In this document: positions 3,538-45,388 of the stretch, one piece after another
How positions within the stretch are numbered: position 1 is the stretch's first letter
Layout: each line of letters opens with the position of its first letter
Source of the DNA: Flavobacteriales bacterium
GTDB taxonomy: Bacteria; Bacteroidota; Bacteroidia; Flavobacteriales_D; Crocinitomicaceae
Assembly (NCBI GenBank): GCA_015665275.1
Contig: JADFAL010000054.1
Location: 1 to 64,000 of the forward strand
DNA: 64,000 nucleotides
Reading direction: 5' to 3'
The notes under the pieces: generated by a model
Database searches by the model: none
What the model was told of the DNA's origin: nothing
What the model saw: the letters and a program-made list of their open reading frames with translations, nothing else
Translations under genes and position numbers: made by a program

Positions 3538-3559
3538 TTAATTCAATACCAATGCTCCA

Positions 3560-4639: not shown

Positions 4640-4706
4640 GACTTTGGATTTACATCACAAAAGAACACAGAAAATCAATCGGTAAATGAACGGGCAATAA
4701 AAGGTA

Positions 4707-8273: not shown

Positions 8274-8351
8274 GAAAGCCTTGATAATTGAACTAAGTTA
8301 ACTATTTATAAACAAGACTCCAAAAGGCTCATAAAAGTTGGCTGAAACCCG

Positions 8352-8359
8352 TATTTTTG
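8352..8359 (+). promoter_or_regulatory. Bacteroidota -7 promoter box for the nitronate monooxygenase / M16 operon
   Basis: TATTTTTG matches the Bacteroidota -7 consensus TAnnTTTG and sits 16 bases before the start codon. No convincing TTG was found at the usual -33 distance, so this rests on a single element. Confidence 0.45.
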
Positions 8360-8375
8360 CGCTATTCAAAGTACT

Positions 8376-9329: not shown

Positions 9330-10570
9330 TGATTCATTTCGATAGATTTACACTGGATAACGGACTGCGTGTTCTATTCCATCAAGACACCACAACCCCT
9401 CTAGCCGTTGTCAATGTTTTGTATGATGTTGGTGCCCGCGACGAATCCGAGGATCAAACAGGATTTGCGCATTTGTTTGAACATCTGATGTTTGGCGGAT
9501 CGATTAACATTCCTGAATTTGATACGCCCTTGCAATTAGCAGGAGGTGAGAACAACGCGTTTACTTCAAACGACGTAACTAATTACTACGATGTACTTCC
9601 GGTAGAAAATATCGAAACGGCATTGTGGTTAGAAAGCGATCGCATGCTGTCCTTGGCGTTTACACCGAAAAGTCTGGAGGTACAACGACAGGTAGTCATT
9701 GAGGAATTCAAACAACGTTACTTGAACCAACCCTACGGAAATGTTTGGTTGGAATTGCGCCCTCTCGCTTATCAAAAGCATCCATACAAATGGGCGACCA
9801 TTGGAAAAAAGATCGAGCACATTGAAGACGCCACGATGGATGATGTGAAGGCATTTTTTCAGAAGCATTACAATCCTCAAAATGCCGTTTTATGTATTGC
9901 CGGAAACTTGGAATTAGACGAGGTGAAAGCAATGACGGAGAAATGGTTCGGTGGAATTCCTTCCGGTGAGAAATACGTAAGAAATTTACCTGTTGAGCCA
10001 GAGCAAAGGGAATTCCGAGAGCAACTCATAGAAAGTGATGTACCTACAGATGCATTTTATTATGCTTTTAAAATGGTAGATCGAAAACACGATGATTTTT
10101 ATACGGCAGATGCACTTTCGGATGCTCTTGGGCGCGATAAGTCTTCAAGGCTTTTTGTTTCTCTGAAAAAAGAACAGAAACTGGTATCTGAAATCAATGC
10201 CTACATCATGGGATCGCACGACGAAGGTTTGCTGGTAATAAGTGGTAAACTGAACGATGGAATATCCTTCGAAACTTTGGATGAAGCGTTGTGGAAAGAA
10301 CTGGCATCCCTATGTTCCGAGCCAATGGAATCGACTGAATTGGAGAAAATTATGGTGAAAATCCGTACAGCGAAGGCATTCCAAGATCAAGGATTATTGA
10401 ACCGCGCTATGGCGTTGGCCACAAATGAACTTCTGGGAGATGCAAACGATGTCAACCTAGAAAACGAAAAATACAAACTAATTACTCCGGAAGACATGCA
10501 CCGTGTGGCAAACAACATCTTTCAGAAACAGCGCTGTTCTGTACTGCGCGTAAAATCGGCTCAGAAATAA
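9329..10570 (+). CDS. M16 family zinc peptidase, catalytic subunit
   Basis: A 413-residue pitrilysin/processing-peptidase family protein. The inverted zinc motif HxxEH is present as HLFEH (H48, E51, H52), with the distal glutamate in VVIEEF (E125/E126). The downstream half is the usual second M16 domain. There is no signal peptide, so it is likely cytoplasmic. It lies between a nitronate-monooxygenase-like gene and a second M16 gene, with TAATG one-base overlaps on both sides. It probably forms a heterodimer with the following non-catalytic subunit, as in two-chain M16B proteases (inference from family knowledge). Confidence 0.9.
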   Translation: MIHFDRFTLDNGLRVLFHQDTTTPLAVVNVLYDVGARDESEDQTGFAHLFEHLMFGGSINIPEFDTPLQLAGGENNAFTSNDVTNYYDVLPVENIETALWLESDRMLSLAFTPKSLEVQRQVVIEEFKQRYLNQPYGNVWLELRPLAYQKHPYKWATIGKKIEHIEDATMDDVKAFFQKHYNPQNAVLCIAGNLELDEVKAMTEKWFGGIPSGEKYVRNLPVEPEQREFREQLIESDVPTDAFYYAFKMVDRKHDDFYTADALSDALGRDKSSRLFVSLKKEQKLVSEINAYIMGSHDEGLLVISGKLNDGISFETLDEALWKELASLCSEPMESTELEKIMVKIRTAKAFQDQGLLNRAMALATNELLGDANDVNLENEKYKLITPEDMHRVANNIFQKQRCSVLRVKSAQK

Positions 10571-11826
10571 TGGACAGAACTCAAGCACCCCCACTTTCAG
10601 CAATTACCGAGATCGAATTTGTTGCTCCCTCTATTCTGGCGATCAACGAGCACGTGAACTTGTACCATATGTCTCACGTACTGAACGACACGGCTCGTTT
10701 CGACTTGTACTTTAATGCTGGTAAAATTCGCAATCAAAAATCGCTTTCATCCTTTGTTAATGGACTATTATTCTCGGGAACAAAAGATAAAACATCTGTT
10801 GAAATCAATGCAGCCATCAATCGACTAGGTGGATTCCTAGACAGTGGACTTTCGGCAGAAAACGCCGTAATTTCTATGTACTGTTTGAAGGAGCATTTAC
10901 CGGAATTGTTCGAAATATTATTCGATGCGATTGTGAACGTTTCTTTCCGCGAAGACGAGTTGTCCGATTTTCTCTCTGACCGCAAGCAGAAATTACAAAT
11001 CAGTCGAGAGAAAGTTTCTTATCTGGCGCAATCCAATTTTCAAAAAGAACTATTCGCTTCAGACGAGCGGTATGCAACTATTTTGGAAGACGAACACTTT
11101 GAATTGGTCGCCCGTGAGGACTTAAAAAAATTCCACGAGCAGTTCATTTTGAATGGCCTTGAACGCATTGTCGTTGTGGGTGATATTCCCGAGGATCAAA
11201 TCCAAACGATTGCTACTAAAGCGAGAGAAATTGCCGTTACCGAGAAACTCGAATTTGCGAATTCGCTTGAGAATCGAGTGGGCAGCAAACATGTTGAGAA
11301 GGAAGGAGCGCTGCAATCTGCCATTCGGGTAGGAAGAACCTTGTTTAACAAAAACCATCCGGATTATCTGGATTTCCTTGTTTTGAACACTATTCTTGGA
11401 GATTATTTCGGTAGCCGGCTTATGTCAAACATTCGCGAAGACAAAGGATATACGTATGGAATTGGTTCCATGGTTGCTGAATTCAACGAAACCGGATATT
11501 TTCTCATTGCTACTGAGGTTGGAACAGACGTTCGTGAAGCAGCCTTGGGTGAGATCAGCAAAGAATTAGAGCAATTACAGAATGTAATTGTTTCTGAGGA
11601 GGAACTAGACTTGATTCGTAACTACATGCGCGGTCAATTATTGAAAAGTGCTGACGGCCCGTACGCTATGACTGATCTGTATCTTTCGGCAATTCTTCAA
11701 GGCAAGGATTTAGAGTTCTACAATGAAGCGCTGAAGGCAATTAATGAGATTTCACCACAACGAATACAGGAACTCGCTCAGAAATATTTAAAATGGGAGC
11801 AAATGACCATTGTTACCACGGGATAG
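10570..11826 (+). CDS. M16 family peptidase-like protein, non-catalytic subunit
   Basis: A 418-residue M16 fold protein. The region that should carry HxxEH reads FVNGLLFSGTKDKT, so the zinc ligands are missing. The substrate-binding segment SRLMSNIREDKGYTYGIG, with the conserved R and Y, is kept. This split of duties matches M16B heterodimers in which one chain supplies zinc and the other the Arg/Tyr pair. It starts on the stop codon of the catalytic subunit (TAATG), fitting equal production of both chains. Confidence 0.88.
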   Translation: MDRTQAPPLSAITEIEFVAPSILAINEHVNLYHMSHVLNDTARFDLYFNAGKIRNQKSLSSFVNGLLFSGTKDKTSVEINAAINRLGGFLDSGLSAENAVISMYCLKEHLPELFEILFDAIVNVSFREDELSDFLSDRKQKLQISREKVSYLAQSNFQKELFASDERYATILEDEHFELVAREDLKKFHEQFILNGLERIVVVGDIPEDQIQTIATKAREIAVTEKLEFANSLENRVGSKHVEKEGALQSAIRVGRTLFNKNHPDYLDFLVLNTILGDYFGSRLMSNIREDKGYTYGIGSMVAEFNETGYFLIATEVGTDVREAALGEISKELEQLQNVIVSEEELDLIRNYMRGQLLKSADGPYAMTDLYLSAILQGKDLEFYNEALKAINEISPQRIQELAQKYLKWEQMTIVTTG

Positions 11827-11890
11827 CAACGAATTAAAGAAACCAATCGTCTTCATACTGTGTATGAATCTTTTACGTTATTGAATCAGG

Positions 11891-14800
11891 ATGTTCCGAT
11901 CGCTACTTTTTATATTTTTCATTTCACTCAGCACTCATAGCTGGGCCTCGCATATTTTGGGTGGTGATATCACTTGGACATGTGACGGAAATGGCGACTA
12001 CGTTTTCCAATTGGTCTTCTATCGCGATTGTAACGGAGCCGATGTTAACACCGTAATGGTTGGACTTGACGTTTGGAATCATCCTACAGTTACCGATATT
12101 CAGATTGATTTTGTATCAAGAACAGACGTTTCTCCCATTTGTACGCAAGTTTCAGGCGGACCGAATCCACTCCTTTGTGGAATTGGAGCGTTTAGTGGAA
12201 ATGGGGTTGGTGCCATCGAAAAAATCGTCTATCAAAGTGCTCCCATTACACTAACGGGTGTACCTCCAGCTTCAGGTTGGATTTTTACCTACGAAGATTT
12301 CTCGCGCAACAACGCACTCACGAATATTCAGAATCCATCTTCTTACGGAATCACATTGACCTCGAAAATGTTCGCTATTCCTGGAGGTGCAGGCACTTGT
12401 GTTGACAATTCACCTCAATTTCTTCAGGAACCACATTTTGTAAGTTGTGTTGGCGAACCCTATGAATACAACCCAAATCCTGTAGACCCCGATTTAGATT
12501 CGATATCGGTGTCCTTCGGGCATCCACTGAATCATATTATTGGCGCAGTTTATAATCCACCGTCGGACCCAATAGAACTTCCCTACGAAACCGGTTTCTC
12601 TCCCACCTCTCCTACTCCTGGAGTCGGGTTGAATCCTGGAAACACCCCAATGAATCTCGATGCGAACACTGGAAATATGACTTTCTTGTCGAACAACTCC
12701 GGTAATTTTGCTGTAAAACTGGTAACGCAATCCTTCCGACAAGGAGTACTCATCGCAGAAGTAGAGCGTGAAATCCAACTAATTGTTCAGAATTGCATTG
12801 GAACGAATAGCCCCCCAATTGTAAATGGACCTTTCGCGGGTGCGTTTGAAACTACGGTTACAGCTGGAGATTTGGTAACGTTTAGTTTGGCTGGCACGGA
12901 TTTGGAATTCTTACAGGATGGAGCTCCGCAAAACAATATTCTAACAGCAACAGGATTGGAATTCGGACCCAACCCAACACTTCCAGTAGGTTGTGCCATC
13001 GCTCCTTGTGCTACACTCGACAATATGCCTCCAATTACGGCACCTCAAGGCGTCAGCACTAACTTTTCCTGGCAAACCGATTGTGCTCATTTATTGAACC
13101 CTTATGGTTTCGTGGCTGCAGAAGTTCCGTACATTTTCGTATTCAAAGTTCAGGACGATTACTGTCCCATTCCAGGGGTGAAATACGCGACGATTAAAAT
13201 CAACGTGCAAAACCCAGACATCATTCAACCGCCGCAAATCGATTGTATTCAAACTGAACTCAATGGAGATGTTACAATCAACTGGAATCCGGTAACCGAC
13301 ATCAATGGTTCTTTCGATTCGTATGAAATCGTGTCAGAACAAAGCGGAACATTAGGGACGATATCAAATATCAACGCCAATAGCTTCACTACGGCACTGC
13401 CATCGGGGCAATCCGAAAATATTCAAGTAGCTGTCGGATCTGCCTGTTTTGGAGCGACCTTTACGTATTCGGATACCGTTGCAAATATTCATTTGGATTT
13501 GAACAATCCTGGAAATGGAACAGCCATTCTTCAATGGAACGACCCTATTCCGACACCGACGACGAATATGGGCGGATTCTATCATATTTATCAGGAATAC
13601 CCTGCTGGAACGTGGACTTTACACGACAGCGTTCCTTATGGCACAACTGTTTACACGGACACCATTATTGTCTGTTCTGGATTTATCAATTATCAAATTG
13701 TACTTCCAAACACGCCTTGCGATTACACATCCAACATCGCCGGGGATTTGTTAGAAGACATGATTACTCCAGACATTCCGACAATAGCTCACGTTTCTAT
13801 TGACACGCTAACGGGGTTGGTCACTATTGAATGGGATCAGAATGCTCAAATCGATACGTACGGGTATGTCATTTTTGGTTTAGATATCAATGGATTTGTA
13901 GTTCCAATAGATACCATTTGGGACCAAGCAATTACTACCTATCAACACAATGTTCCGATTGACGCAGGTCCATTGACATATACAGTTGCTGCATTCGATT
14001 CTTGTTTTACTTCTACAGTTCCTCCGACTTATCAATCATCGGCCAAAGCGTTGTTGAACACTTCAAGTTTCCTCACAACAGATTTGGATATTTGTGCGAA
14101 TGCAGTCACCTTAACTTGGACCAATTATATCGGTTGGCCGGGCATTAGCCAATATCAAATATTTGTTCGCCAAGATGCCGGAAATTATACATTGGTTGGA
14201 AATACGACAGATACCACGTTTACAGTCTCTGTGCAGCAAGCATCGAACTATTGCTTTGTAGTGGAAGCCATTTCGACCGACGGCAATCGGTCGTTTTCGA
14301 ATCCTTCGTGCTTCTTCGTTCCAATTCCAATAGCACCATCGTTTAACTATCTGCAAGTTGCCACAGTAAATGCAGAGCGCGTAGATTTAACCCATTACAT
14401 TGAGTTTACCACCAACGTTTCGCAGATCTCCATTGAGCGCGAAGATTTTACTGGAACTTTCGTAGAAATTGCGCGACTCGCTGTTTCTGGTTCTACTATT
14501 AATTACACGGACTCAGACGTTGACGTGAATTTGTATAGTTACAAATATCGCGTGCAAGTTATAGACAGTTGCGGAAAGGCTGGAGCGTATTCCAACGAGG
14601 CAGAAACTATTCTTCTGGACGTACAGTTGGACGAATTGGAGAAGCTCGTGTATTTGACTTGGAGTCCATATCGAGAATTTGATGGGTCTATTTTGGGCTA
14701 CACCGTATATCGCTCTATAGACGACGTTTTAACCGCTTCGCCTATTGCTACTGTTCCAAACGGACAATACTTCTATACTGATGACGTGACGAGCGTAACA

Positions 14801-15187
14801 TCTACAGGACGGGTTTGCTATTATGTTGAAGCTATTGAAGCAACGAATCAATTCGGTTTTGCTGAGACGAGCGTATCCAATAGAGATTGTGCCTTGTTGG
14901 AACCACTGATTTACATTCCAAATGCGTTCTCTCCAAACGGCGATGAGTATAATGATGTCTTCATTCCGGTAGTTTCAGATTTCGATCCGGCTTATTATGA
15001 ATTCATCGTTTACAATCGATTTGGCCGTGCCATCTTCCAAAGTAACGATCCTGCAGTGGGTTGGGACGGAACAATGAATACTACTGGAGAATCTGCAATG
15101 ACTGGATTGTATCTTTATTCATTGAGTCTTAGAGATGGAAACGGTATTGAAATTCTCAAACGCGGTCACGTAAGTTTGTTGCGGTAG
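11891..15187 (+). CDS. Large secreted protein with gliding-motility-type (T9SS type B) C-terminus
   Basis: 1098 residues. The signal peptide ends near SWA (residue 19) and is followed directly by SHILGGDITW and FYRDCNG, an N-terminal domain shared with the protein encoded at 17795-19540. The middle (about 450-1000) holds repeated fibronectin-III-like sandwiches (VTINWNP, AILQWND, VTIEWDQ, VYLTWSP). The last 90 residues (IPNAFSPNGDEYND to GHVSLLR) form the type B sorting domain. It is probably a surface fibre or adhesin. It begins 64 bases after the M16 pair and is likely a separate unit. Confidence 0.85.
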   Translation: MFRSLLFIFFISLSTHSWASHILGGDITWTCDGNGDYVFQLVFYRDCNGADVNTVMVGLDVWNHPTVTDIQIDFVSRTDVSPICTQVSGGPNPLLCGIGAFSGNGVGAIEKIVYQSAPITLTGVPPASGWIFTYEDFSRNNALTNIQNPSSYGITLTSKMFAIPGGAGTCVDNSPQFLQEPHFVSCVGEPYEYNPNPVDPDLDSISVSFGHPLNHIIGAVYNPPSDPIELPYETGFSPTSPTPGVGLNPGNTPMNLDANTGNMTFLSNNSGNFAVKLVTQSFRQGVLIAEVEREIQLIVQNCIGTNSPPIVNGPFAGAFETTVTAGDLVTFSLAGTDLEFLQDGAPQNNILTATGLEFGPNPTLPVGCAIAPCATLDNMPPITAPQGVSTNFSWQTDCAHLLNPYGFVAAEVPYIFVFKVQDDYCPIPGVKYATIKINVQNPDIIQPPQIDCIQTELNGDVTINWNPVTDINGSFDSYEIVSEQSGTLGTISNINANSFTTALPSGQSENIQVAVGSACFGATFTYSDTVANIHLDLNNPGNGTAILQWNDPIPTPTTNMGGFYHIYQEYPAGTWTLHDSVPYGTTVYTDTIIVCSGFINYQIVLPNTPCDYTSNIAGDLLEDMITPDIPTIAHVSIDTLTGLVTIEWDQNAQIDTYGYVIFGLDINGFVVPIDTIWDQAITTYQHNVPIDAGPLTYTVAAFDSCFTSTVPPTYQSSAKALLNTSSFLTTDLDICANAVTLTWTNYIGWPGISQYQIFVRQDAGNYTLVGNTTDTTFTVSVQQASNYCFVVEAISTDGNRSFSNPSCFFVPIPIAPSFNYLQVATVNAERVDLTHYIEFTTNVSQISIEREDFTGTFVEIARLAVSGSTINYTDSDVDVNLYSYKYRVQVIDSCGKAGAYSNEAETILLDVQLDELEKLVYLTWSPYREFDGSILGYTVYRSIDDVLTASPIATVPNGQYFYTDDVTSVTSTGRVCYYVEAIEATNQFGFAETSVSNRDCALLEPLIYIPNAFSPNGDEYNDVFIPVVSDFDPAYYEFIVYNRFGRAIFQSNDPAVGWDGTMNTTGESAMTGLYLYSLSLRDGNGIEILKRGHVSLLR

Positions 15188-15430
15188 TTGATTGCGGGCA
15201 GTAATGAAATGCGTTTAGAAGATCAGAATAATAATTTGCAAGTACTAGAAAAAACTATATTCCTATCTAACCATTAGTTATAAAGATATATGGTTTTGAA
15301 TCTGTCTCACATTCATTTTTTCAATCCCCAATCTTCCCAACCGAACGGATCACAAGCTTAACTCCCAATTGACAAACCAAATTATCTCAGTCTCAAATTA
15401 CGAATACGCGAATTTGGGTATTTTTACCTC

Positions 15431-16387
15431 GTGAATCGAATCCTTGTTATTCAAACTGCCTTTCTGGGAGATGTCATTCTGGCAACGCCTGTTGTATCAG
15501 AACTGCACCGATTGTTTCCTGACGCGTCCATTGATGTTTTGGTCAAAAAAGGAAATGAATCTTTGTTGGCGAACAATCCGAAAATCCGAAATGTGATTGC
15601 GTTTGATAAAACGACCGGGAAGTGTAAATCCATCTTTCGATTCATCAAACAATTCAGAAAAGAGCAATACGATCTGACGGTAAACATGCATCGCTTTGGC
15701 TCTTCCGGAATCATTGCCGGGTTCTCAGGCGCGAAGCAACGTATTGGTTTTGATAAGAATCCATTTGCGTGGCGCTACACGAAGAAATATGCGCACAAGA
15801 TTGGGAACGGAACACACGAGGTTGAAAGAAATCTTTCATTGATTCAAGACTTAGGCGCTAAGAGTATTGTGCGCCCAGAGCTCTTCCCATCTAAGGAGGA
15901 CTTTGACAAAGTAACTACGTTTCAATCCGAGGATTACATCTGTATTGCTCCAGCATCTGTTTGGTTTACAAAGGCACTTCCGGAAAGCAAATGGATCGAA
16001 CTTCTAAAAAAGAATCTCCAAAAGAAGATTTATATTCTCGGTGGGCCAGACGACAGCGCACTTGCCAATCGAATTCTTGCCGAGGTCCCCGAAGCAAAGG
16101 CCGAAAATCTATGTGGAAAGTTATCCTTATTGCAATCTGCAGCATTGATGAAAGGCGCTGAAAGAAACTATGTTAATGATTCAGGCCCATTACATCTCGC
16201 CTCTTCCATGAATGCAAAAGTAACAGCCTTCTTCTGTTCGACAGTACCAGAATTTGGATTCGGTCCAATGTCAGAAGATTCAGAAATCAAGCAAGTAGAA
16301 GGATTGGATTGCCGCCCCTGTGGATTGCACGGTCACTCAGCTTGTCCCAAAGGGCACTTCAAGTGTGGCTTGGATATTCAAATTTGA
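15431..16387 (+). CDS. Glycosyltransferase family 9 (heptosyltransferase-like)
   Basis: 318 residues, start codon GTG. The N-terminus RILVIQTAFLGDVILATPVV is the ADP-heptose transferase opening with its conserved G-D. A Rossmann second half carries ILGGPDD and VNDSGPLHLASS, the nucleotide-sugar binding signature of GT9. GT9 enzymes add heptose or related sugars to lipopolysaccharide core at the inner face of the cytoplasmic membrane; the true sugar here is uncertain. No other LPS genes are nearby. It converges with the next gene, 14 bases between the stops. Confidence 0.87.
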   Translation: MNRILVIQTAFLGDVILATPVVSELHRLFPDASIDVLVKKGNESLLANNPKIRNVIAFDKTTGKCKSIFRFIKQFRKEQYDLTVNMHRFGSSGIIAGFSGAKQRIGFDKNPFAWRYTKKYAHKIGNGTHEVERNLSLIQDLGAKSIVRPELFPSKEDFDKVTTFQSEDYICIAPASVWFTKALPESKWIELLKKNLQKKIYILGGPDDSALANRILAEVPEAKAENLCGKLSLLQSAALMKGAERNYVNDSGPLHLASSMNAKVTAFFCSTVPEFGFGPMSEDSEIKQVEGLDCRPCGLHGHSACPKGHFKCGLDIQI

Positions 16388-17239: not shown

Positions 17240-17740
17240 CTACGATCTCAAGGTTAGCTCCATGATGTAATCCTCCATCAGATAATCCTTTCCAATATCG
17301 ATATCTTCCTCACCTGTAATTTTGAATCCGCAATGCTCGTAGAACTGTACCGCTTTATTGAAACGATTGACATTAAGATGAACTGTATGAAGATCTAAAT
17401 CGAACGCTATGTCAATCGCTTGATTTAATAATACTCGTCCTAATCCTTTCCCTTTTTGATCCGGAAGCACATACAGTTTGTGAATACGCAGATAATCAGC
17501 ATCGGGGTAATTGGGCTCTACTCCAAGAAATCCTTTGGCAATTCCATTTTCCTTTACGAGATAATACAAATGACCGGTTTGAACTTGTTCTTCCAACGTA
17601 TTTACATCGTACATCCAGTCCAGCATGTAAGCGATTTGATCCTTAGAGAGAATGTCTTTAAATGCACTTGGCCAGATGTCGTGTGCCAAATGATTTACTA
17701 GAAAGATATCTTCTTTACCAAGTTGCACCGTTTCTATCAT
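17240..17740 (-). CDS. GNAT family N-acetyltransferase
   Basis: 166 residues, the normal size for a one-domain GNAT enzyme. The acetyl-CoA binding motif A is seen as KLYVLPDQKGKGLGRVLLN (Q/R-x-x-G-x-G/A), followed by the HLNVNRFNKAVQFYEHCGF segment typical of the C-terminal half. These enzymes move an acetyl group from acetyl-CoA to amines, proteins or small molecules; the substrate is unknown. A -7-like TAATTTCG lies just upstream on the minus strand. Confidence 0.88.
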   Translation of the reverse strand: MIETVQLGKEDIFLVNHLAHDIWPSAFKDILSKDQIAYMLDWMYDVNTLEEQVQTGHLYYLVKENGIAKGFLGVEPNYPDADYLRIHKLYVLPDQKGKGLGRVLLNQAIDIAFDLDLHTVHLNVNRFNKAVQFYEHCGFKITGEEDIDIGKDYLMEDYIMELTLRS

Positions 17741-17794
17741 CGAAATTCTATTTCTTGCGAAATTAGGAAATCGATTACGTTAATAATCGCGCCA

Positions 17795-19540
17795 TTATCT
17801 AAGGATATGCACAAAGCCATGTGCAGTGTACTTCGCTTTCTCTATGCTACTGTACTCATACTTAGTACTAGATGGCGTGGCTGTATAAGTGTATACTCCT
17901 TCTGTAAGCGGAACACCTTTCAGATTTGTTCCGTCCCAATCGTTCTCATAATTTTCATTTTCGTACACAAGATTCCCCCAACGATTAAATATCATTACAC
18001 GTACACTGTCATAATCCTCCATGTTTTTGATAATGAAGGTGTCATTGACCTCATCGCCGTTTGCTGTGATTACGTTAGGCGCAACAATAGGACATTGATG
18101 GTACACTTTAATCTCTCCATTCGCTTGTCCACCACAGGCATCGAAAACTGTGAAGTAGGTCAAATTTAAATTCGGTTGAAGATTAGAACTTGGTACTTGA
18201 ATCGATTCGCCGGTTGTGTTCCACGGATCCCAGCCAATAGCGTATGGAGGGACTCCATTTGTAACATCTACAGAGAGCAGGGCAAACGCATCGGTTTCAT
18301 CGCAAACATTCACACTATCGATATAACTCAATTCCATGGGGATATAATCTTGAATAGTGATAAACGTGGTTACAGTGTCAAATGTATTTTCACAAGGGAT
18401 CTCAATTATAGCGCTTAGCTCTACGGTTTCTCCTCCCTCTATTAAATTGTCCAAATAACCAGTAATCGAAATGGTATCTGTACCAACATTCGGAGGTAGC
18501 GTAATTAGCGTAGGCAAGGCATCATAATCTACATTTGGAGTTGCTGTTCCACCAATTAAAAGCTGAACATCAAGTGCATCTGTCGAGTCTTCTCTGAAAA
18601 TCACAAATCCAGCCAACCCACAATCTTCAATAATTGTTTGATCTCCAATGATATCTATCATTACAGGCACCTCTTCTTCACAAAGCAAGACATTGTAACC
18701 AAACGTTCTGGATTTTGTATTGATCAGCACTCCATTTCTCCATTCTTCCACACAAATTGCCATTACATAGGTTCCGACTTGGTTCGGTGTAATAGTTAAC
18801 AAACCGGTCACTGGATCAATACTTGCAGAACCTCCGGGACCGAAAGGCTGCCCTAAAGAAAAACCAATATCCCAAGGAATGTCTGCGTAGGGTTCTGGAA
18901 AATCAGGACTTGGTTCCGCTCCGAGTGGGTTCCCTACATCAATAGTCAACGGCGTACAAATGGAATAGGCCAATGAATCACCATCTTCGTCTGAAGCCGA
19001 ATGATCGTACACAAGGGTATTATTTGAACACAATACGATGGGCGGATAATCCGAATACCTCGCACAATTATTATGCTGACTGACCAGATTCGTTCCCGGA
19101 ACGCGGGTAGTAATTGTGATGCCCCAGTTACCAGGGTTTTGAATATTTAGAATAGCATTCGACCAACAGCATCTTTGATACGTAATGTAATAACCATCTG
19201 CAGTCAAAGGCATGGTAATAGTATCTACGTAAAGGGCCCCTTCAATACAAACATCATCGGGTGGTGTTACGCAAGGATCGTCATACACTAGAGGTAACGT
19301 ATCTGGTAATGGAGCAGTAATAAAGTATTCTCCGTATAAAGTTCCGTTCGCCAAATAAACGGTATAATGCAGTGGGTCGTCATAACCTGCAGTTCCCGGA
19401 GAACAATCTCTGTACACTTCAAATGTAACTCGGTACTGGTCATTACCTAGAGAATCATAATAAACTTCTCCTCCAACAATATGGGTAGCATGTGCGGAAC
19501 CCAAAAACAATAAAAAACTAATTACTAAAAATCCTTTCAT
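17795..19540 (-). CDS. Secreted protein with Calx-beta-like domain and gliding-motility-type (T9SS type B) C-terminus
   Basis: 581 residues. The signal peptide (MKGFLVISFLLFLGSAHA) is followed at once by THIVGGEVYY and VYRDCSPG, the same N-terminal domain as in the protein at 11891-15187. Both share an NIQNPxxxGIT segment and a DxDxDS(L/I) calcium-loop-like stretch. Residues 290-400 resemble a Calx-beta/DUF11-type sandwich (GLAGFVIFREDS, TPNVDYDALP). The end (APNVITANGDEVND to GFVHILR) is the type B sorting domain. It is a likely surface protein with unknown ligand. Confidence 0.82.
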   Translation of the reverse strand: MKGFLVISFLLFLGSAHATHIVGGEVYYDSLGNDQYRVTFEVYRDCSPGTAGYDDPLHYTVYLANGTLYGEYFITAPLPDTLPLVYDDPCVTPPDDVCIEGALYVDTITMPLTADGYYITYQRCCWSNAILNIQNPGNWGITITTRVPGTNLVSQHNNCARYSDYPPIVLCSNNTLVYDHSASDEDGDSLAYSICTPLTIDVGNPLGAEPSPDFPEPYADIPWDIGFSLGQPFGPGGSASIDPVTGLLTITPNQVGTYVMAICVEEWRNGVLINTKSRTFGYNVLLCEEEVPVMIDIIGDQTIIEDCGLAGFVIFREDSTDALDVQLLIGGTATPNVDYDALPTLITLPPNVGTDTISITGYLDNLIEGGETVELSAIIEIPCENTFDTVTTFITIQDYIPMELSYIDSVNVCDETDAFALLSVDVTNGVPPYAIGWDPWNTTGESIQVPSSNLQPNLNLTYFTVFDACGGQANGEIKVYHQCPIVAPNVITANGDEVNDTFIIKNMEDYDSVRVMIFNRWGNLVYENENYENDWDGTNLKGVPLTEGVYTYTATPSSTKYEYSSIEKAKYTAHGFVHILR

Positions 19541-32432: not shown

Positions 32433-34061
32433 ATGTCAAATGCACTTTTTAAGGTGCCTGCAGCCGTTAATGAGCCAGTTCGCGCTTACAAGCCAGGTAC
32501 CGATGATCATACCAACTTAATCGCGAAGTACCGTGAAATGTACAATCAGGCCCCAATTGAAGTTCCACTTTACATTGGAGATAAGCGTGTGAGCACGTCG
32601 ACGAAAAATGCAATGACACCACCGCACGACCACGCTAAGGTTCTAGGACATTACAGTGTTGGAGATGCATCTAACGTAGAAGCTGCCATTGACGCTGCGA
32701 TGAATGCTCGTGAAGCTTGGGCAAACCTACCATGGGAACAACGCGCTTCTATTTTCTTGCGTGCTGCAGATCTTTTGGCTGGACCTTACCGAGATAAAAT
32801 GAACGCTTCAACAATGTTGGCGCAATCGAAGAATGTTTTCCAAGCGGAAATTGATGCTGCTTGTGAGTTGATCGACTTCTTCAAGTTCAACGTGCAGTAC
32901 ATGACACAAATTTACAAGGAGCAACCAGATTCACTTCCAGGTATGTGGAACCGATTAGAGTACCGTCCGTTGGAAGGATTTGTATTTGCTATTACTCCTT
33001 TCAACTTCACATCTATTTGTGCTAACTTATGTGCAGCGCCAGCAATGATGGGGAATGTGGTTGTATGGAAACCGGCTGAATCTCAGATGTACTCTGCTCA
33101 GGTAATCATGGAATTGTTCGAAGAAGCAGGAGTACCAAAAGGAGTTATCAATATGATCTCGGTTGATGGACCCGTTGCTGGAGAAGTGGTATTCAAGCAT
33201 AAAGATTTTGCTGCATTGCATTTTACAGGATCAACAGCTGTATTCCGTCACCTTTGGAAAGAAATTGGAAACAACATTGAAAAGTACCGCAGTTACCCAC
33301 GTATCGTTGGAGAAACTGGAGGTAAAGATTTCATAATGGTGCACAAATCGGCGAATGCCGCTCAAGTTGCAACAGCAATGACACGTGGATCTTTCGAATT
33401 CCAAGGACAGAAATGTTCCGCTTCTTCTCGAGCGTACATTCCAAACAATCTTTGGGAAGACGTAAAGAAAATTGTTGTGGAACAAGTGAGTTCTTTCAAA
33501 ATGGGATCTCCTGAAGATAGTTCAAACTTCATTAATGCGGTAATCGATGAGCGTGCATTTGACAAGATCGCTGGATACATCGATTTCATCAAGGAGCAAA
33601 ATGATGCTGAGATCATCTTAGGAGGTAACTACGACAAATCCAAAGGATACTTCATCGAGCCAACAGTAGTTGTGACTTCAAATCCGAAATTCAGAACGAT
33701 GTGTGAGGAAATCTTCGGACCAGTATTGACAGTATTCGTTTATGATGCTGAAGATTACGAGGCAACCTTAGACTTGGTAGACCAAACATCGGATTACGCC
33801 TTAACAGGATCGATCATTTCAAACGATCGTTATGCCGTAAATCTAGCAATGAAGAAATTGGAGAATGCCGCCGGAAACTTCTATATCAATGACAAACCAA
33901 CTGGAGCCGTTGTAGGACAGCAGCCATTTGGTGGTGCTCGTGGGTCTGGAACGAACGACAAAGCCGGAGCGCCAATGAACTTGTTGCGCTGGGTATCTGC
34001 AAGAACAATCAAAGAAACGTTTGTTCCGGCATCGGATTACCGATATCCATTTATGGGGTAA
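32433..34061 (+). CDS. pruA: L-glutamate gamma-semialdehyde (delta-1-pyrroline-5-carboxylate) dehydrogenase
   Basis: The start is set at ATG 32433, just after the promoter, giving 542 residues, the usual length for the stand-alone enzyme. Aldehyde-dehydrogenase residues are visible: ITPFNFTS, HFTGSTAVF, E294 in VGETGGKDF, and catalytic C328 in FQGQKCSASSRAY. EIFGPVLTVFVY and PTGAVVGQQPFGGARGSGTNDKAG are P5C-type signatures. It oxidises glutamate semialdehyde to glutamate with NAD+, the second step of proline breakdown. No proline dehydrogenase gene is adjacent. A strong terminator follows. Confidence 0.94.
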   Translation: MSNALFKVPAAVNEPVRAYKPGTDDHTNLIAKYREMYNQAPIEVPLYIGDKRVSTSTKNAMTPPHDHAKVLGHYSVGDASNVEAAIDAAMNAREAWANLPWEQRASIFLRAADLLAGPYRDKMNASTMLAQSKNVFQAEIDAACELIDFFKFNVQYMTQIYKEQPDSLPGMWNRLEYRPLEGFVFAITPFNFTSICANLCAAPAMMGNVVVWKPAESQMYSAQVIMELFEEAGVPKGVINMISVDGPVAGEVVFKHKDFAALHFTGSTAVFRHLWKEIGNNIEKYRSYPRIVGETGGKDFIMVHKSANAAQVATAMTRGSFEFQGQKCSASSRAYIPNNLWEDVKKIVVEQVSSFKMGSPEDSSNFINAVIDERAFDKIAGYIDFIKEQNDAEIILGGNYDKSKGYFIEPTVVVTSNPKFRTMCEEIFGPVLTVFVYDAEDYEATLDLVDQTSDYALTGSIISNDRYAVNLAMKKLENAAGNFYINDKPTGAVVGQQPFGGARGSGTNDKAGAPMNLLRWVSARTIKETFVPASDYRYPFMG

Positions 34062-34093: not shown

Positions 34094-34134
34094 AAGGCTG
34101 GTCATCAGATTTATAATGGTGATCAGCCTTTTTT
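34094..34134 (+). terminator. Rho-independent terminator after P5C dehydrogenase
   Basis: Arms AAGGCTG (34094-34100) and CAGCCTT (34124-34130) continue inward with wobble pairs to about 13 base pairs, followed by TTTTTT. It separates this gene from the five-copy membrane-protein array. Confidence 0.88.
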
Positions 34135-34194: not shown

Positions 34195-34848
34195 ATGCCC
34201 ACTTCACTGAAGTTTCAATCTCCGTTTGACAACGAAAGCCAAGTACTGGTAACGAAAGATTCTAACTGGACCAACATCAAAGTATATGCGAACGGTGGTT
34301 TGCAATATCAATCTTCAAACGGAGACGAATTGCGTTCAGGCGTAAGCTTAGACCTGGGAGGTAAAGGCACTTTGGAACTGATCCTAAAGTCAGAATTAGA
34401 AGTTAGCGTAAAAGGCACTAAGTACGATGCATTGCAAATAGAAGCGGAGGAAAAAGTATCTAATGTTTCCGCAATTTTCTGGGTATTAGCTGGGTTTAGC
34501 GTGATTGGATTACTTTTTCTTTTCATGCTTTCAGAAATGATGGACACAACATCTTTTCAAATACTGATGGCGCTTCAAATCTTCGTTGTTCTAGTATACA
34601 GCGCAACAGCTGTTTTAATTCGAAGAAATGTTTATTGGTTCTATTTTGTTGGAGCCGGCACATTCACTTTCTTCACAGCGCTTCAATTAATAGATATTCA
34701 AGCAACATTCCTCAATGCAATTACAATCTTCATATTCGCCATACGTGTTGTCTTATTGGTTTTGGTACTTCGTATTTTGCCGACCATTTTGAAACGGATG
34801 CGAAACTCAGGTTCATCTGCTCATCATAATACAATCCTTGATCAATAG
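34195..34848 (+). CDS. Tandem-array membrane protein, copy 1 (unknown family)
   Basis: 217 residues, no recognised family. The N-terminal part (1-85) is a small beta-rich-looking cytoplasmic or periplasmic domain with NWTNIKVYANGGL. About four membrane segments follow (about 93-112, 116-140, 146-170, 180-200), with YSATAVLIRRNVYWFYFVGAG in the middle shared by all five copies. The end reads HHNTILDQ, a variant of the LDD-tag found in the others. It is the first of five head-to-tail paralogues. A -7-like TATTTTAG lies at 34169-34176. Confidence 0.7.
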   Translation: MPTSLKFQSPFDNESQVLVTKDSNWTNIKVYANGGLQYQSSNGDELRSGVSLDLGGKGTLELILKSELEVSVKGTKYDALQIEAEEKVSNVSAIFWVLAGFSVIGLLFLFMLSEMMDTTSFQILMALQIFVVLVYSATAVLIRRNVYWFYFVGAGTFTFFTALQLIDIQATFLNAITIFIFAIRVVLLVLVLRILPTILKRMRNSGSSAHHNTILDQ

Positions 34849-34858
34849 TGATGGTATA

Positions 34859-35548
34859 ATGGGGAGTTTTACTAAAATATATTACTGCATTCGAAACCCG
34901 AATAAATCGCTTGTTCTTACTTGGGACATTGGATACAAAAACGTGACGCTACTGGATGGAGATCGTGTTGTTCACAATTGGGATTCGCCTGTCGTTTTTG
35001 AGAAAGGGACCTTTATACATGATGAAAGATTGGGCCAAATAAAACTCAACTTTACGGAGAGGCGACCACTCATGCTGGAATTGCGTGTTGAGGGAAAGCG
35101 GTTCGCACCAAGGGGCGTTAAAGGCCAAGCAGAATTCAGGCTGCAAGGTCCCAAAACTATCTTCTGGATCATGTTCACAAGTACATTGTTGTATACGGTT
35201 TACATCGCTTATCAGTATCGAGACATCCTTTCTTGGGAGCCACATATTCTTGATCGTTTCTTTGTTATATTCTCAATCATAGCGGCCATTTATTTGTTCA
35301 CGGCTATTATGCTTACACTGAAAAAGTACTGGACCTTTTTCATTGGATTTGGCTATTTCACTTTATCCACCTTTCTATTCGTCTACGATGCTTTTTCAGG
35401 AAGCAATGTGTGGTGGATTTTATTGACGTTGGCAAGATTAGCAATACTTGTTTACCTTATTTTCCAAATTAAAACAGTCATTCTCGCCATGAAAGCGAAA
35501 CGTAACTCCGATTACAAGGAAAGTACGGTTCTGGATGACGAATTTTAA
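34859..35548 (+). CDS. Tandem-array membrane protein, copy 2 (unknown family)
   Basis: 229 residues from ATG 34859; a TTG start at 34838 overlapping copy 1 is also possible. It has the same plan as copy 1: an N-terminal domain with KNVTLLDGDRVVHNW, then four membrane segments with FTAIMLTLKKYWTFFIGFGYF, and the C-terminal tag STVLDDEF. It is the most diverged copy in its N-terminal domain. It starts 10 bases after copy 1 and ends 2 bases before copy 3, so the array is one transcript by spacing. Confidence 0.68.
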   Translation: MGSFTKIYYCIRNPNKSLVLTWDIGYKNVTLLDGDRVVHNWDSPVVFEKGTFIHDERLGQIKLNFTERRPLMLELRVEGKRFAPRGVKGQAEFRLQGPKTIFWIMFTSTLLYTVYIAYQYRDILSWEPHILDRFFVIFSIIAAIYLFTAIMLTLKKYWTFFIGFGYFTLSTFLFVYDAFSGSNVWWILLTLARLAILVYLIFQIKTVILAMKAKRNSDYKESTVLDDEF

Positions 35549-35550
35549 TT

Positions 35551-35796
35551 ATGAGTTCATCCATTAAACTAATATCACCTACAAATCCAGAAAAGTGGGT
35601 CTTTATCACCCATGAATCGGGCTGGAAGAATACCAAAATTTACGCCAACGGGAAATTGATCAAATCTTTCGAGAATCCACAAGAACTAAAAAAAGGAATA
35701 GTGGATGAAATAGATGGTTTAGGAATGATGAAGTTCAGTCTACATCCAGCTACTCTGCGTCCTTTGTTGATTGTTAAATGGCGAGAATTTTTTTAG
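35551..35796 (+). CDS. Tandem-array membrane protein, copy 3, N-terminal half (frame broken)
   Basis: 81 residues holding only the N-terminal domain: SGWKNTKIYANGKLIKSF matches copies 1, 4 and 5. After LRPLLIV the frame runs into WREFF and TAG. The next frame gives NGENFFREKKK, which aligns with VNGTPYIPENEK of copy 5, so the homologous frame changes at GTTAAATGG (35774-35782), equal to one extra A. This is either a true frameshift, a sequencing error, or two separately made halves. Confidence 0.6.
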   Translation: MSSSIKLISPTNPEKWVFITHESGWKNTKIYANGKLIKSFENPQELKKGIVDEIDGLGMMKFSLHPATLRPLLIVKWREFF

Positions 35797-35827
35797 AGAG
35801 AAAAAAAAGCAGGAATCGGTTAAAGAA

Positions 35828-36232
35828 ATGAACGGCGTAATTATTATTTTCTCGATCCTGGCATTGCTAAACTTTTTGATTTTCCTAATGGCAATGGTCC
35901 GGTTAAACGCAAATATTTTGCCATCCGATTTAGCTGTCACAGAAATGATAGCAATATTCACGGGGGGCTTCACTGCGCTTTATACAGCTAGCGCAATCCT
36001 CTTTGCCCGCGGAATCTATTTTATGTACTTCCTCGGAACAGGATTCTTCTTCGCATCTACAGTTTGGATTATGTACAATATTTATCACGCCCCAGACGAC
36101 GTTCAATATATTTTTGTAATTGCTCGATTCATCTTATTGGGAATACTCGGAATCTACTTCAAGAGAGTTCTTGCTTTTATGAAAGTTCCAAAAGAGCGCA
36201 CTGATCATGAAATTCTAGATGACACCTTCTAA
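35828..36232 (+). CDS. Tandem-array membrane protein, copy 3, membrane half (frame broken)
   Basis: From ATG 35828 this gives 134 residues; the homologous frame itself reaches back to about 35779. It carries the four membrane segments, with YTASAILFARGIYFMYFLGTG at the position conserved in every copy, and ends with the tag HEILDDTF. Because the membrane part and the tag are intact, the downstream half still looks functional. It could be translated from the internal ATG, or joined to the N-terminal half by frameshifting. Confidence 0.55.
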   Translation: MNGVIIIFSILALLNFLIFLMAMVRLNANILPSDLAVTEMIAIFTGGFTALYTASAILFARGIYFMYFLGTGFFFASTVWIMYNIYHAPDDVQYIFVIARFILLGILGIYFKRVLAFMKVPKERTDHEILDDTF

Positions 36233-36250
36233 TTTTAGTACCTTTTACGA

Positions 36251-36943
36251 ATGAGCAAGTCCATTAAAATGGTATCGACGCAAGACGCGAATAAGTTCGT
36301 TTACGTTACAAGTAAAATTGGATGGGCGAAAACCAAGGTTTACGCCGACGGCAGACTAATACGGGAATTCAAAAATTCTTCTGAATTTAAAAACGGCATC
36401 AAACTTCAAGTTGAAGACTTCGGTACTATTGCCATTTCGCTAGCGGCAAATGGTAAACTTAAGCTTTCCGTTGATGAGATTTCATTTGAACCAGTGATCA
36501 GTAAAAAAGAGGCTATCAATAATTTTCGAGGAGCGGCCGCAATTTTTGTTGTTCTTGCAAGCTTCAATTTTTTATTCTTATTTGGAATAGTATTTATTAC
36601 AGTCGATGCACCCGATAGTATCCGCAATGCAGCGATGACCTTAATAGCTCTCGCTATTGCTTGTATCACAATTTATACGCTTAGCGCCATCTATTTGCGA
36701 AAGAGGGTGTATGCCTTTTACTTCATTGGAACTTCTGTTTTTCTGCTCACCACGCTTTACTTTACGAATAGCTACATGGATCATGATGGTGAGTTTTTTC
36801 TTTGGTATACATTACCGAGGCTTGTCATTCTCGCATTACTCTTACGTTATTTCAACCGGGTCCTAAGACTGGCCAGAAACTACCAAGAAAAGAATCATGA
36901 CGATGTTTTGGATGACAATTTATTAACGCCTCACTTTCAATGA
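36251..36943 (+). CDS. Tandem-array membrane protein, copy 4 (unknown family)
   Basis: 230 residues, intact. N-terminal domain with IGWAKTKVYADGRLIREF and LKLSVDEISFEP; membrane segments from about residue 93; middle motif YTLSAIYLRKRVYAFYFIGTS; then RLVILALLLRYFNRVLRLAR and the tag DDVLDDNL. Unlike the others it has six extra residues after the tag (TPHFQ end). Its stop overlaps the start of copy 5 by four bases (ATGA). It is the best reference for the full-length form. Confidence 0.7.
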   Translation: MSKSIKMVSTQDANKFVYVTSKIGWAKTKVYADGRLIREFKNSSEFKNGIKLQVEDFGTIAISLAANGKLKLSVDEISFEPVISKKEAINNFRGAAAIFVVLASFNFLFLFGIVFITVDAPDSIRNAAMTLIALAIACITIYTLSAIYLRKRVYAFYFIGTSVFLLTTLYFTNSYMDHDGEFFLWYTLPRLVILALLLRYFNRVLRLARNYQEKNHDDVLDDNLLTPHFQ

Positions 36944-37221
36944 GTATTACAACCAAATTTGTAGCACAAAACGGAACTGGAAAGTCCATTCTAATTAGAA
37001 GAAATAGACTTTGGGAAAACGTGGAAATCTATTACGAAGACCGTCTAATTCAAACCTATAGATTTGCATCAGAAACACGAGAAGGCACATTATTTACTAT
37101 CGAAGACTTGGGCGATATTTCACTAAAAGTTCACTCCGTGACTTTGGCGCCAACTTTGCTCGTTAACGGTACGCCATATATTCCTGAAAACGAAAAAGAT
37201 CGGCCTCGTAAAGGCTTTTGA
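36940..37221 (+). CDS. Tandem-array membrane protein, copy 5, N-terminal half (frame broken)
   Basis: 93 residues: the N-terminal domain only, with LWENVEIYYEDRLIQTY and TLLVNGTPYIPENEK. It ends at TGA in GGCTTTTGATCC, precisely where the membrane part of the other copies begins. One more T in the T-run would give KGFLIPTLVFG, which aligns with NFRGAAAIFVVL of copy 4, so a single-base loss is the simplest account. Confidence 0.6.
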   Translation: MSITTKFVAQNGTGKSILIRRNRLWENVEIYYEDRLIQTYRFASETREGTLFTIEDLGDISLKVHSVTLAPTLLVNGTPYIPENEKDRPRKGF

Positions 37222-37616
37222 TCCCGACTCTTGTATTTGGAGTCCTTGCATTGTTTAACTTGGTGTTCTTCGCCATGTCATTAGAAGATTACCGAACCTA
37301 TCGGGATTGGTTCGTTTCAACTATAGTTTTACTCGTCTCAGGATTCTATCTTTTGAGTTATATAATCACCACTATCTTTCTAGCTCGACGTATTTACTTC
37401 TTCTACTTTTATGGTACAGGAATTTTCATTTTCTCCACGTTTTGCTTTGTAGCGATAATAGCTTTAAATGGAATCAGTACCGCATTTCTGACACTTCTAA
37501 TCGTCCGAATTCTTGCACTCGTTTTGCTTTTAAGATATTTTAAACGCGCCATTCGTTTGCTAAGAGAGCATAGATCAGGAAGTGAAGTTTCTATTATTTT
37601 AGATGACGAATTGTAA
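37218..37616 (+). CDS. Tandem-array membrane protein, copy 5, membrane half (frame broken)
   Basis: 132 residues with the four membrane segments, motif SYIITTIFLARRIYFFYFYGTG, then ILALVLLLRYFKRAIRLLRE and tag SIILDDEL. Its only early start is TTG 37218, which overlaps the upstream stop as TTGA, the layout of coupled genes. So it may be made separately after the N-terminal half, or it may be the displaced second half of one gene. Confidence 0.58.
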   Translation: MIPTLVFGVLALFNLVFFAMSLEDYRTYRDWFVSTIVLLVSGFYLLSYIITTIFLARRIYFFYFYGTGIFIFSTFCFVAIIALNGISTAFLTLLIVRILALVLLLRYFKRAIRLLREHRSGSEVSIILDDEL

Positions 37617-37625
37617 ACGGGCGAA

Positions 37626-38225
37626 TCACTTCGCTTTGAAAGTCATTCCCATATACTGCGCCAGCTTCTCATAACCTTCTGCATGTTCAGAAGTGGTCCA
37701 AGCGGATATCTTAATTAGAGAGTTGTCCGTTTCATAATACCTCAAGAAGAATGTTTTTCGCAGTGGGAATCCATATGCTTTTCCATGAATGGTTTGTTTG
37801 AAACATTTCCGCTTATTTACTAAGGTTTCAGTCATCTCTTCAAACTTCACATTTAGCAGTTTCCCTTTTAAGGCGTTGCCCTCTGCCGTAGCAAACCATT
37901 TCAATTGTTTCTTAGAATCTTTGGGGAATTGGGAATCATTCTTGAAGTAAGAAATTGGATATGACTGGATCGTTACATGATATTGCTTCGAAAGGTGGTC
38001 CGCGTCCAACAGCGTCATTCCCGAAGCACGATTCCAAGACATTTCCTTCAAGAGCTGAATGGTAAATCCTTCTCCCTGAAATTTTCGAAACTTTGATGCA
38101 TCTACCTTGGGAAGTTGCTCGGCCTTATCATCTTGATTGGCTTCAGCTTCAGACTTACCCGCAGAACAAGCTGTTAGCCCAATAGTTAATATCAAGAAGA
38201 AATAAAACGGTCTTAACGCAGGCAT
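37626..38225 (-). CDS. Lipoprotein of unknown function downstream of paaD
   Basis: 199 residues. A type II signal peptide ends in lipobox LTAC (C20), followed by a charged linker SAGKSEAEANQDD. The mature part has a mixed alpha/beta look with SKQLKWFATAEGNALKGK and YETDNSLIKISAWTTSEHAEGYE. I do not recognise the family. Its start lies inside paaD by 13 bases, so it is expressed with the paa genes by position, though no link to phenylacetate is evident from the sequence. Confidence 0.7.
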   Translation of the reverse strand: MPALRPFYFFLILTIGLTACSAGKSEAEANQDDKAEQLPKVDASKFRKFQGEGFTIQLLKEMSWNRASGMTLLDADHLSKQYHVTIQSYPISYFKNDSQFPKDSKKQLKWFATAEGNALKGKLLNVKFEEMTETLVNKRKCFKQTIHGKAYGFPLRKTFFLRYYETDNSLIKISAWTTSEHAEGYEKLAQYMGMTFKAK

Positions 38226-38701
38226 TTGAAGTAATCAAAAGGTTCCAGACAAACGTTGCACTGATAATGCGCTTTGCAGGCAGTACTTCCGAATTGACTC
38301 ACCAAGCGCGTGTCTTTTGCCTCGCATTTTGGACATGGAACAACAAATGGGTCGGCGAAGAGAACACTCTTATCAGGTTCGTTTTCTGGAGGGGCAATTC
38401 CGTATTCTTTTAACTTTCGCTTCCCATCCTCTGACAACCAATCAGTTGTCCATGCTGGAGCCAAAACCAAATCAACGGAAACGTTATCGATTCCTTTCTC
38501 ATTGAGATTCTCAACGATATCATCTTCGATGCGCTTCATCGCAGGACATCCGCTATACGTAGGAGTAATAGTAACCTTGCAAGCATCACCATCCAACTCA
38601 ACGTTACGGACAACGCCTAGGTCGACAACCGTTAATACGGGAACTTCAGGGTCAAAGACCTCTTCCAAATAACCCCATATCTCTTCCTTTGTAGCTACCA
38701 T
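38213..38701 (-). CDS. paaD: 1,2-phenylacetyl-CoA epoxidase subunit PaaD
   Basis: 162 residues. The N-terminal MIP18/PaaD domain shows EVFDPEVPVLTVVDLGVVR and ITPTYSGCPAMK. The C-terminal cysteine cluster (CPKCEAKDT..., CKAHYQCNVCLEPFDYFKC) is typical of PaaD. PaaD is thought to help mature the metal or Fe-S centres of the epoxidase. It overlaps the end of paaC by 7 bases. Confidence 0.93.
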   Translation of the reverse strand: MVATKEEIWGYLEEVFDPEVPVLTVVDLGVVRNVELDGDACKVTITPTYSGCPAMKRIEDDIVENLNEKGIDNVSVDLVLAPAWTTDWLSEDGKRKLKEYGIAPPENEPDKSVLFADPFVVPCPKCEAKDTRLVSQFGSTACKAHYQCNVCLEPFDYFKCLR

Positions 38702-44053: not shown

Positions 44054-45388
44054 ATGTTTACAACTAAACGTACGTTTATCGTTGTGCTAACCCTTACGGC
44101 CTTACTTTCGCTCCCGTCGTTCGGTGCTACTTACACAACAACAGGCTCGGGAAACTGGTCTGACCCCACAATCTGGTCACTTGACGGTGGCAGTACTAGC
44201 TGCTTTTGTACTCCTCCAACAAATCTAAGTGGAGACACAATTACCATTAATCATGATATCGTCGCTACAGCTAATCTGGCTGTTAGTAACAGCGGTCAAT
44301 TAAATGTAAATGCATCCGGTACGCTGGACGCCACAGGAAGACGCTTAACGATAACAGACAACGCAGAGGTGAATCTTTATGGTGATTGTTCGTTTTCCCG
44401 TTTTATAAATGGGACATCTGCAGGCACCAGTGGTGGAACGCTGAATATTATTGGTTCTATAATTCATCTTGCGGGTCCAATCAACGCCAACGCAGGAGTG
44501 ATCAATATTGCGGGCTATCTCTAACAAACCACTGGAAACATTCAAATTGAACCCAATGCGACTATCAATTTTATATCCGGTGGAAAGTTTGAGTCCTTTA
44601 ATGGTAACATCAACAATGAAGGAACCTTATCTATCTGTCCTGATTGTTGTATGACAACAACCGGAAACTGGACGAACGAATCCACCGGAATTGTGAACGG
44701 AGATGGATCGGCGACCTCGACTACAGGTAACATGAACAATTTTGGTACATGGTCCGCTGCGATCACTTGGTGTTCGGCAGGTTTTGATACAGGAATGCCA
44801 TCAGCCGAAGATTGCACCACGTCTGGAACAACCTGTGCTTTTGTTTCCTTACCAGTAGAACTTTCCGATTTTTACGGAACTGCTTTAGAACATCATAACC
44901 TATTGGCTTGGGTGACTCAAACGGAGAAAGATTGCGAAACATTTATAGTAGCTAAATCTACAGACGGATATTATTGGGATGAACTAGGAAAAGTGAACTG
45001 TGTTGGAAACAGCACCAATGCCAATTATTATGAATTCCGAGACATTCACATTTCGGGAGGCATTTCATATTATCGATTGAAACAAATCGATGTTGATGGA
45101 ACGGTACATTACTCGCAGCCTATCAGTATCTCGAACAGAGCATCTCAAAAATTGATGACGTATCCAAATCCGATTTCAGCTGGAGAATTAGTATACATCG
45201 CAGGAATTGAAGGTGATGGTAAAATCAGCATAAGAAACGCAGCAGGGCTAATCGTTAGCGAAGAGCAAATTTCATTAAACTCTGGAGAATCCGCTACAAT
45301 TAATTCTCAAGGCTTCTCTGCAGGATTATATATCGTAGAATTTGTAAATGGTGAAGACCAGAAAACAACCAAATTCATCATACGATAA
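44054..45388 (+). pseudogene. T9SS type A cargo protein gene interrupted by an in-frame TAA
   Basis: Reading from ATG 44054 gives a signal peptide (ends near SFGA) and a beta-helix-like N-terminal part (GNWSDPTIWSLDGG, many N-V/I-N repeats). The frame meets TAA at 44522-44524 after AGYL. The same frame continues without further stops (QTTGNIQIEPNATINF...), through SLPVELSDFYGTA and SYYRLKQIDVDG, to a type A sorting domain (MTYPNPISAG to TTKFIIR) ending at 45388. Without the TAA it would be a normal 445-codon T9SS cargo gene. CAA to TAA is a one-base change, so this is a nonsense mutation or a read error. The second part has an internal ATG at 44651 but no signal peptide. Confidence 0.75.

Follow-up and report, generated by a model that had tools for sequence, protein, structure and literature searches.

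Among described proteins, those closest in predicted structure to the family reported here are Fas apoptosis inhibitory molecule (FAIM, PF06905) and the tetraspanins. FAIM has two β-sandwich domains and no membrane segments, and tetraspanins carry a large second extracellular loop with a cysteine motif. Here we describe an array of genes for small membrane proteins in a 64,000-nucleotide stretch of contig JADFAL010000054.1 from a Flavobacteriales bacterium of the Crocinitomicaceae (the whole stretch is hereafter called the window). At positions 34195-37616 the window holds five homologous units arranged head to tail, between a pruA-like gene with its terminator and a convergent putative lipoprotein gene. 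We tentatively read the products, at a probability of about 0.4, as membrane-tethered cytosolic binding modules with a FAIM-like fold, evolving as a birth-and-death array, whose C-terminal tails would dock on a shared cytosolic partner.

Five homologous units in one array

The mutual homology of the five units is beyond chance. A search of its own 3.64-Mb genome (115 contigs) with copy 4 recovered copy 1 (E 2.3e-21), copy 2 (E 3.7e-9), the two halves of copy 3 (E 1.2e-13 and 7.5e-12) and the two halves of copy 5 (E 1.8e-12 and 0.002). No further family member was found in that genome, where the sole extra match at E ≤1 resembled chance (E 0.08). Pairwise identity among the five copies is roughly 20-40%, and the general plan and the C-terminal tag are kept in all five. 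The initial annotation, made from the sequence alone, had recognized five tandem paralogues but took all of them to be intact genes; in fact only copies 1, 2 and 4 are, whereas a frameshift divides copy 3 and another divides copy 5. Features of the locus are given below, where G labels denote genomes (G000 being the window's own, the others relatives) and L labels, used later, denote stretches fetched around family genes.

32433-34061, plus strand: aldehyde dehydrogenase, which we take from sequence knowledge to be pruA-like; left border of the slot by synteny, 94% identical to G020
34094-34134, plus strand: intrinsic terminator 3' of the pruA-like gene and upstream border of the array; hairpin of -21.2 kcal/mol (z -6.98) followed by a T run
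34195-34848, plus strand: copy 1, intact, 217 amino acids (aa); orthologue of G020 copy 1, 53% identity
34859-35548, plus strand: copy 2, intact, 229 aa; clusters with the sole gene of this slot in G025, 50% identity
35551-36232, plus strand: copy 3, frameshifted; N-terminal domain (N-domain) in an open reading frame (ORF) at 35551-35796, membrane half in another frame at 35771-36232
36251-36943, plus strand: copy 4, intact, 230 aa; from its ORF and the genome search
36940-37616, plus strand: copy 5, frameshifted; N-domain ORF at 36940-37221, membrane half in another frame at 37218-37616; intact orthologue in G020
37626-38225, minus strand: convergent putative lipoprotein, right border; 52% identical to G020, no Pfam match
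38213-38701, minus strand: presumably a paaD-like gene, a label given from sequence knowledge; start of the conserved paa block past the slot, by synteny and comparison with G020

The ORF coordinates bear out the annotated spacings of 10, 2, 18 and -4 bases. The annotated terminator at 34094-34134 is likewise borne out by its hairpin and T run; a simple terminator scan passed over it, as that scan permits loops of 3-8 nucleotides and the loop here is 9. From the spacing and the upstream terminator it is plausible that the five copies form one transcript. A promoter scan returned 6 sites, with 10.0 expected from shuffled sequences. The two sequence motifs proposed for the family hold in part. 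The first (W/Y-x-N/K-T-K-[VI]-YA-x-G) is present in copies 3 and 4 and, bar one residue, in copy 1, and is not found in copies 2 and 5; the second ([YF]-x-A-x-A-I-x-x-R-x-x-Y-x-x-Y-F-x-G-[TA]-G) fits only approximately.

Copies 3 and 5 are more probably truly broken than misassembled, though this is not proven. The G020 orthologue of copy 5 is a single intact ORF of 223 aa (52% identity in the N-terminal part and 51% in the membrane part). Sequencing error is disfavoured because none of 18 other window genes with G020 orthologues shows a change of frame, and comparison with G025 agrees. One of those 18 genes (44054-45388) contains one in-frame stop where G020 and G025 have a 444-aa ORF. Broken family copies also occur in the relatives G007, G008, G012 and G031. 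Since these break at varying places and the G020 orthologue of copy 5 is intact, we reject programmed frameshifting, or genes split at the domain junction, as a common rule; programmed frameshifting may apply to window copies 3 and 5 alone.

Distribution and evolution of the family

Almost all members of the family come from a single bacterial family, the Crocinitomicaceae. Matches were found in 17 of 60 near relatives, in 31 of 150 genomes of the bacterial family and in 27 of 299 genomes of the order (these three draws overlap, and each count here includes the window's own genome). Outside the bacterial family, G214 and G228 are convincing, and weaker matches occur in G045 (E 1e-8, partial) and G047 (E 4e-4). 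A wider sample of the phylum gave matches at E ≤0.01 in 5 of 296 genomes, of which the four other than the window's own are weak and fall in the membrane part. Most of the 31 matching genomes of the bacterial family (23) have a single match, in some cases broken or partial. Tandem sets comprise five copies in the window, three in G020, and two each in G036, G080, G140, G164 and G174, while G131 has a second, partial match on a separate contig. By a hand count that includes broken copies, 18 of 36 fetched stretches carry the family gene within the pruA–paaD region or next to it, and in the other 18 it lies elsewhere with differing neighbours.

No credible family was found in Pfam, PADLOC or PHROGs, scanned with 18 members, or in NCBIfam, scanned with six pieces from the window; the matches obtained were to single members only. 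Within these libraries the earlier statement that no named family has this layout therefore holds. The strongest of all was MFS_1 in Pfam (2e-6, one of 18 members), the best PADLOC match had an E-value of 0.012 (one of 18), and the best NCBIfam match scored 19.4 bits against a cut-off of 144. Profile searches of the Protein Data Bank (PDB) sequences with the family and the domain gave nothing below E 0.5, and a structure search among viral models gave no E-value <0.001. In the open-licence part of PubMed Central, no paper was found that combines Crocinitomicaceae, paralog, membrane protein and tandem, nor one that combines FAIM domain with bacterial.

In a tree of 41 rows, copy 2 groups with the single copy of G025 and copy 2 of G020 (support 100/99), and copies 1, 3, 4 and 5 group with copies 1 and 3 of G020 (97/90). 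Within the latter clade, copy 1 pairs with G020 copy 1 (100/100) and copy 5 with G020 copy 3 (100/99), while copies 3 and 4 branch deeply and have no G020 counterpart. The orthologues of copies 1, 2 and 5 occupy the same slot in G020; the slot of G025 has no counterpart of any window copy except copy 2. These pairings imply that the copy lineages predate the split between the window and G020, and judging from the tree the clade of copies 1, 3, 4 and 5 arose before the window and its nearest relative diverged. This supports the proposal that the duplication is old and that the copies have retained the plan. Copies 3 and 4 appear to have been lost in G020, and all but copy 2 in G025, unless the second clade came by transfer. 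The trees are discordant on the nearest relative: flanking proteins place the window beside G020 (92/93), whereas copy 2 places it beside G025 (100/96).

Where a copy has an orthologue, it has changed roughly 12–31 times as fast as the flanking proteins. The path from the window to G020 is 0.071 for seven flanking proteins, compared with 0.88, 2.23 and 1.21 for copies 1, 2 and 5 (the copy 5 value summed by hand); as the two trees used different models, the ratio is rough. Nonsynonymous differences to G020 are 0.32-0.46 for the copies, whereas the remaining genes compared, except the lipoprotein (0.29), show 0.02-0.11; for other genes compared with G025 they reach 0.16. The initial annotation had suggested selection for different partners. 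Fast change is measured, but it does not separate diversifying selection from relaxed constraint because synonymous sites are saturated or nearly so for most copies, which also makes dN/dS (the ratio of nonsynonymous to synonymous rates) unusable as a test; the broken copies favour a dispensable array. The pairing of copies 1 and 5 with their own G020 orthologues speaks against gene conversion between copies. From the tree, the copy numbers and the recurring broken copies, we judge that the array is evolving by birth and death.

The lipoprotein at 37626-38225 evolves as fast as the array, with nonsynonymous differences of 0.29-0.31 and identities of 52% and 50% to G020 and G025; the paa genes are at about 90%.

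Predicted fold, topology and the C-terminal tag

An AlphaFold2 model of copy 2, built with seven other sequences (mean predicted local distance difference test (pLDDT) 79.6, predicted template modelling score (pTM) 0.55), has eight strands in residues 3-84 followed by four long helices up to residue 226. This bears out the annotated plan of about four membrane segments, and the column conservation given below bears out its C-terminal tag. The loop between transmembrane segments (TM) 2 and 3 carries 2.22 Lys+Arg and 0.06 Asp+Glu per protein, compared with 0.33/1.33 and 0.06/1.06 in the other two loops (18 sequences, with loop bounds that we set). By these charges the N-domain and the tail are both predicted to be cytosolic. 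Conserved columns include G50 (39/41), G163 (38/41), F102 (38/41), R193 in TM4 (37/41) and Y145 (35/41).

The N-domain is predicted to resemble FAIM in fold, a likeness without sequence homology. A FAIM-like sandwich had been set down as a lead before the structure search was run. With the N-domain of copy 4 modelled alone alongside nine others (mean pLDDT 83.9, pTM 0.69), VIA-align ranked three FAIM entries first to third: 2kw1 (Z 6.6, 3.2 Å over 73 residues), which is titled only 'Solution structure of CTD' and which we take to be FAIM, 2kd2 (Z 6.1, 3.7 Å over 77) and 3mx7 (Z 5.9, 3.5 Å over 80). The fourth row was Neisseria factor H binding protein at Z 4.7. With the full model, the same FAIM entries scored 6.3, 5.6 and 5.5 over residues 1-87, and factor H binding protein was virtually tied at 5.4. 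Weak agreement came from two Foldseek searches, in each of which 3mx7 had the highest probability among the 50 matches listed (0.63 and 0.85).

The tail ends in an acidic [ILV]-L-D peptide (the LD tag). Its Asp is present in all 40 rows of the family that have a residue there, the 41st (L090) having lost its tail, and is the only invariant column among those listed; the preceding residue is Leu in 36 rows and Ile in four. In 400 kb of G027, with the family member excluded, the tag occurs on 9 of 32 small membrane ORFs (at least two crude membrane segments) compared with 11 of 315 other ORFs; with the family member included, the enrichment has a Fisher p of 2.5e-6. Of the nine, at least one appears fortuitous, and five are not independent in place, as they sit within 6 kb of the family member. 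When compared with the family profile, none of six small proteins of this G027 cluster exceeded a probability of about 8% (maximum 8.1), and in four the best match lay at the tail; four untagged proteins stayed at or below 0.5%. Among the other fetched neighbourhoods, the tag is clear on membrane proteins only in one neighbour in L094. We regard a portable tail as a lead, strong in one genome.

Several neighbouring or similar genes were seen in passing. In L029, seven small polytopic membrane ORFs outside the family surround the family member at 2481-12673 (G027:C14, about 212480-222672); five end in the LD tail and one in LLEE. The same stretch contains a CBASS-like set (phospholipase effector, E2, cyclase and a separate two-TM effector) at 12866-15567 and 17285-17935, near the family gene and the tagged cluster. 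The L094 neighbour (9268-9450) is a 60-aa one-segment protein that adjoins a family member and has the same tail. L130 138-374 (G000:C15) is a 78-aa two-segment ORF, also with this tail.

Possible roles and comparison with known systems

If the proteins are tethered binding modules, the four helices would anchor them in the inner membrane, the β-domain would bind a client or ligand at the cytosolic face with a surface that diverges between copies, and the acidic tail would dock all copies on one shared cytosolic partner. Several results weigh against this reading. Copies are often lost or broken, which speaks against an important role. The tag on proteins outside the family is common in G027 only: in the window's own genome (400 kb and the window) it occurs on 1 of 29 other small membrane ORFs versus 7 of 400 other ORFs, and the control genomes G038 and G054 do not exceed background (tagged small membrane ORFs: 1 of 11 and 1 of 20, respectively). 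The FAIM matches fall below Z 8 and were made with a predicted model, and Foldseek gave no E-value <0.001 to FAIM or other proteins among the matches listed. Moreover, the FAIM1 sequence model (PF06905) exceeded its curated cut-off in none of 60 genomes and did not match the window copies; nor was FAIM1 listed when 10 N-domains were scanned at E up to 10. A bolder form, in which the family is a bacterial FAIM-fold module tethered to the membrane, possibly a client-binding holdase of the inner membrane, and the LD peptide a portable docking code by which unrelated small membrane proteins in these bacteria plug into one cytosolic partner, seems doubtful to us.

It is possible, at less than even odds, that the array is simply relaxed and decaying, its extra copies being redundant relics of an old duplication that have no distinct partners and are drifting and being lost. 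The two frameshifted copies, the broken copies in four relatives, the copies missing from G020 and G025 and the high nonsynonymous differences would all follow. However, the plan and tag are kept in all five copies despite their low identity, copies 1, 2 and 5 have orthologues kept in a second genome, and in each half of copies 3 and 5 the frame is otherwise uninterrupted. We consider it rather unlikely that each protein instead protects from a single variant of a phage or of a toxin, secreted or delivered by contact, in an immunity or exclusion array diversified by duplication in a fixed slot. Tandem, dispensable and fast-evolving four-helix proteins, often in one slot, would suit such a function, as would the fast-evolving lipoprotein next door and the CBASS-like set about 3.6 kb away in one relative. 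Against it, no toxin gene was recognized by eye among the mapped neighbours, where no systematic search was made, the PADLOC match is poor and limited to one member, and half of the 36 loci lie outside the slot among differing neighbours. It is improbable that the proteins are small transporters or channels of four helices in which the cytosolic β-domain acts as the gate and the buried TM4 arginine forms part of the path. The conserved R193, Y145 and G163 and the four-helix bundle, which matches tetraspanin CD53 at Z 9.5, are consistent with such a role, but for helical bundles a match under about Z 13 may be generic, the sole transporter-like Pfam match (MFS_1) is in one of 18 members, and such fast change would be unusual for a core transporter.

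If the tethered-module reading is correct, it would place a FAIM-like fold beyond animals and their relatives, in an unnamed Crocinitomicaceae family. The C-terminal peptide is more conserved than any other part of the protein, which makes the question of a partner directly testable, and the array offers a compact example of genes arising and being lost in one fixed slot. Should the tail serve only for stability and the additional copies be drifting, there would be nothing out of the ordinary here.

DUF2127 (PF09900), like the present family, has a W-A motif where the third helix begins, and it weakly matches copy 2 in Pfam; however, the 12.9 bits obtained are under its cut-off of 24.3, and we reject kinship because profile comparison by hhalign gave a probability of 0.4%. 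Tetraspanin CD53 is the best solved match to the four-helix bundle (3.8 Å over 126 residues), probably as a generic bundle. Unlike tetraspanins, the model has short turns, with helices 159-180 and 184-226 only three residues apart, and a cytosolic β-domain. FAIM supplies the top three structure matches to the predicted β-sandwich of the N-domain. In contrast to FAIM, which the window proteins do not match in sequence, they carry one β-domain followed by four membrane helices and the tag.

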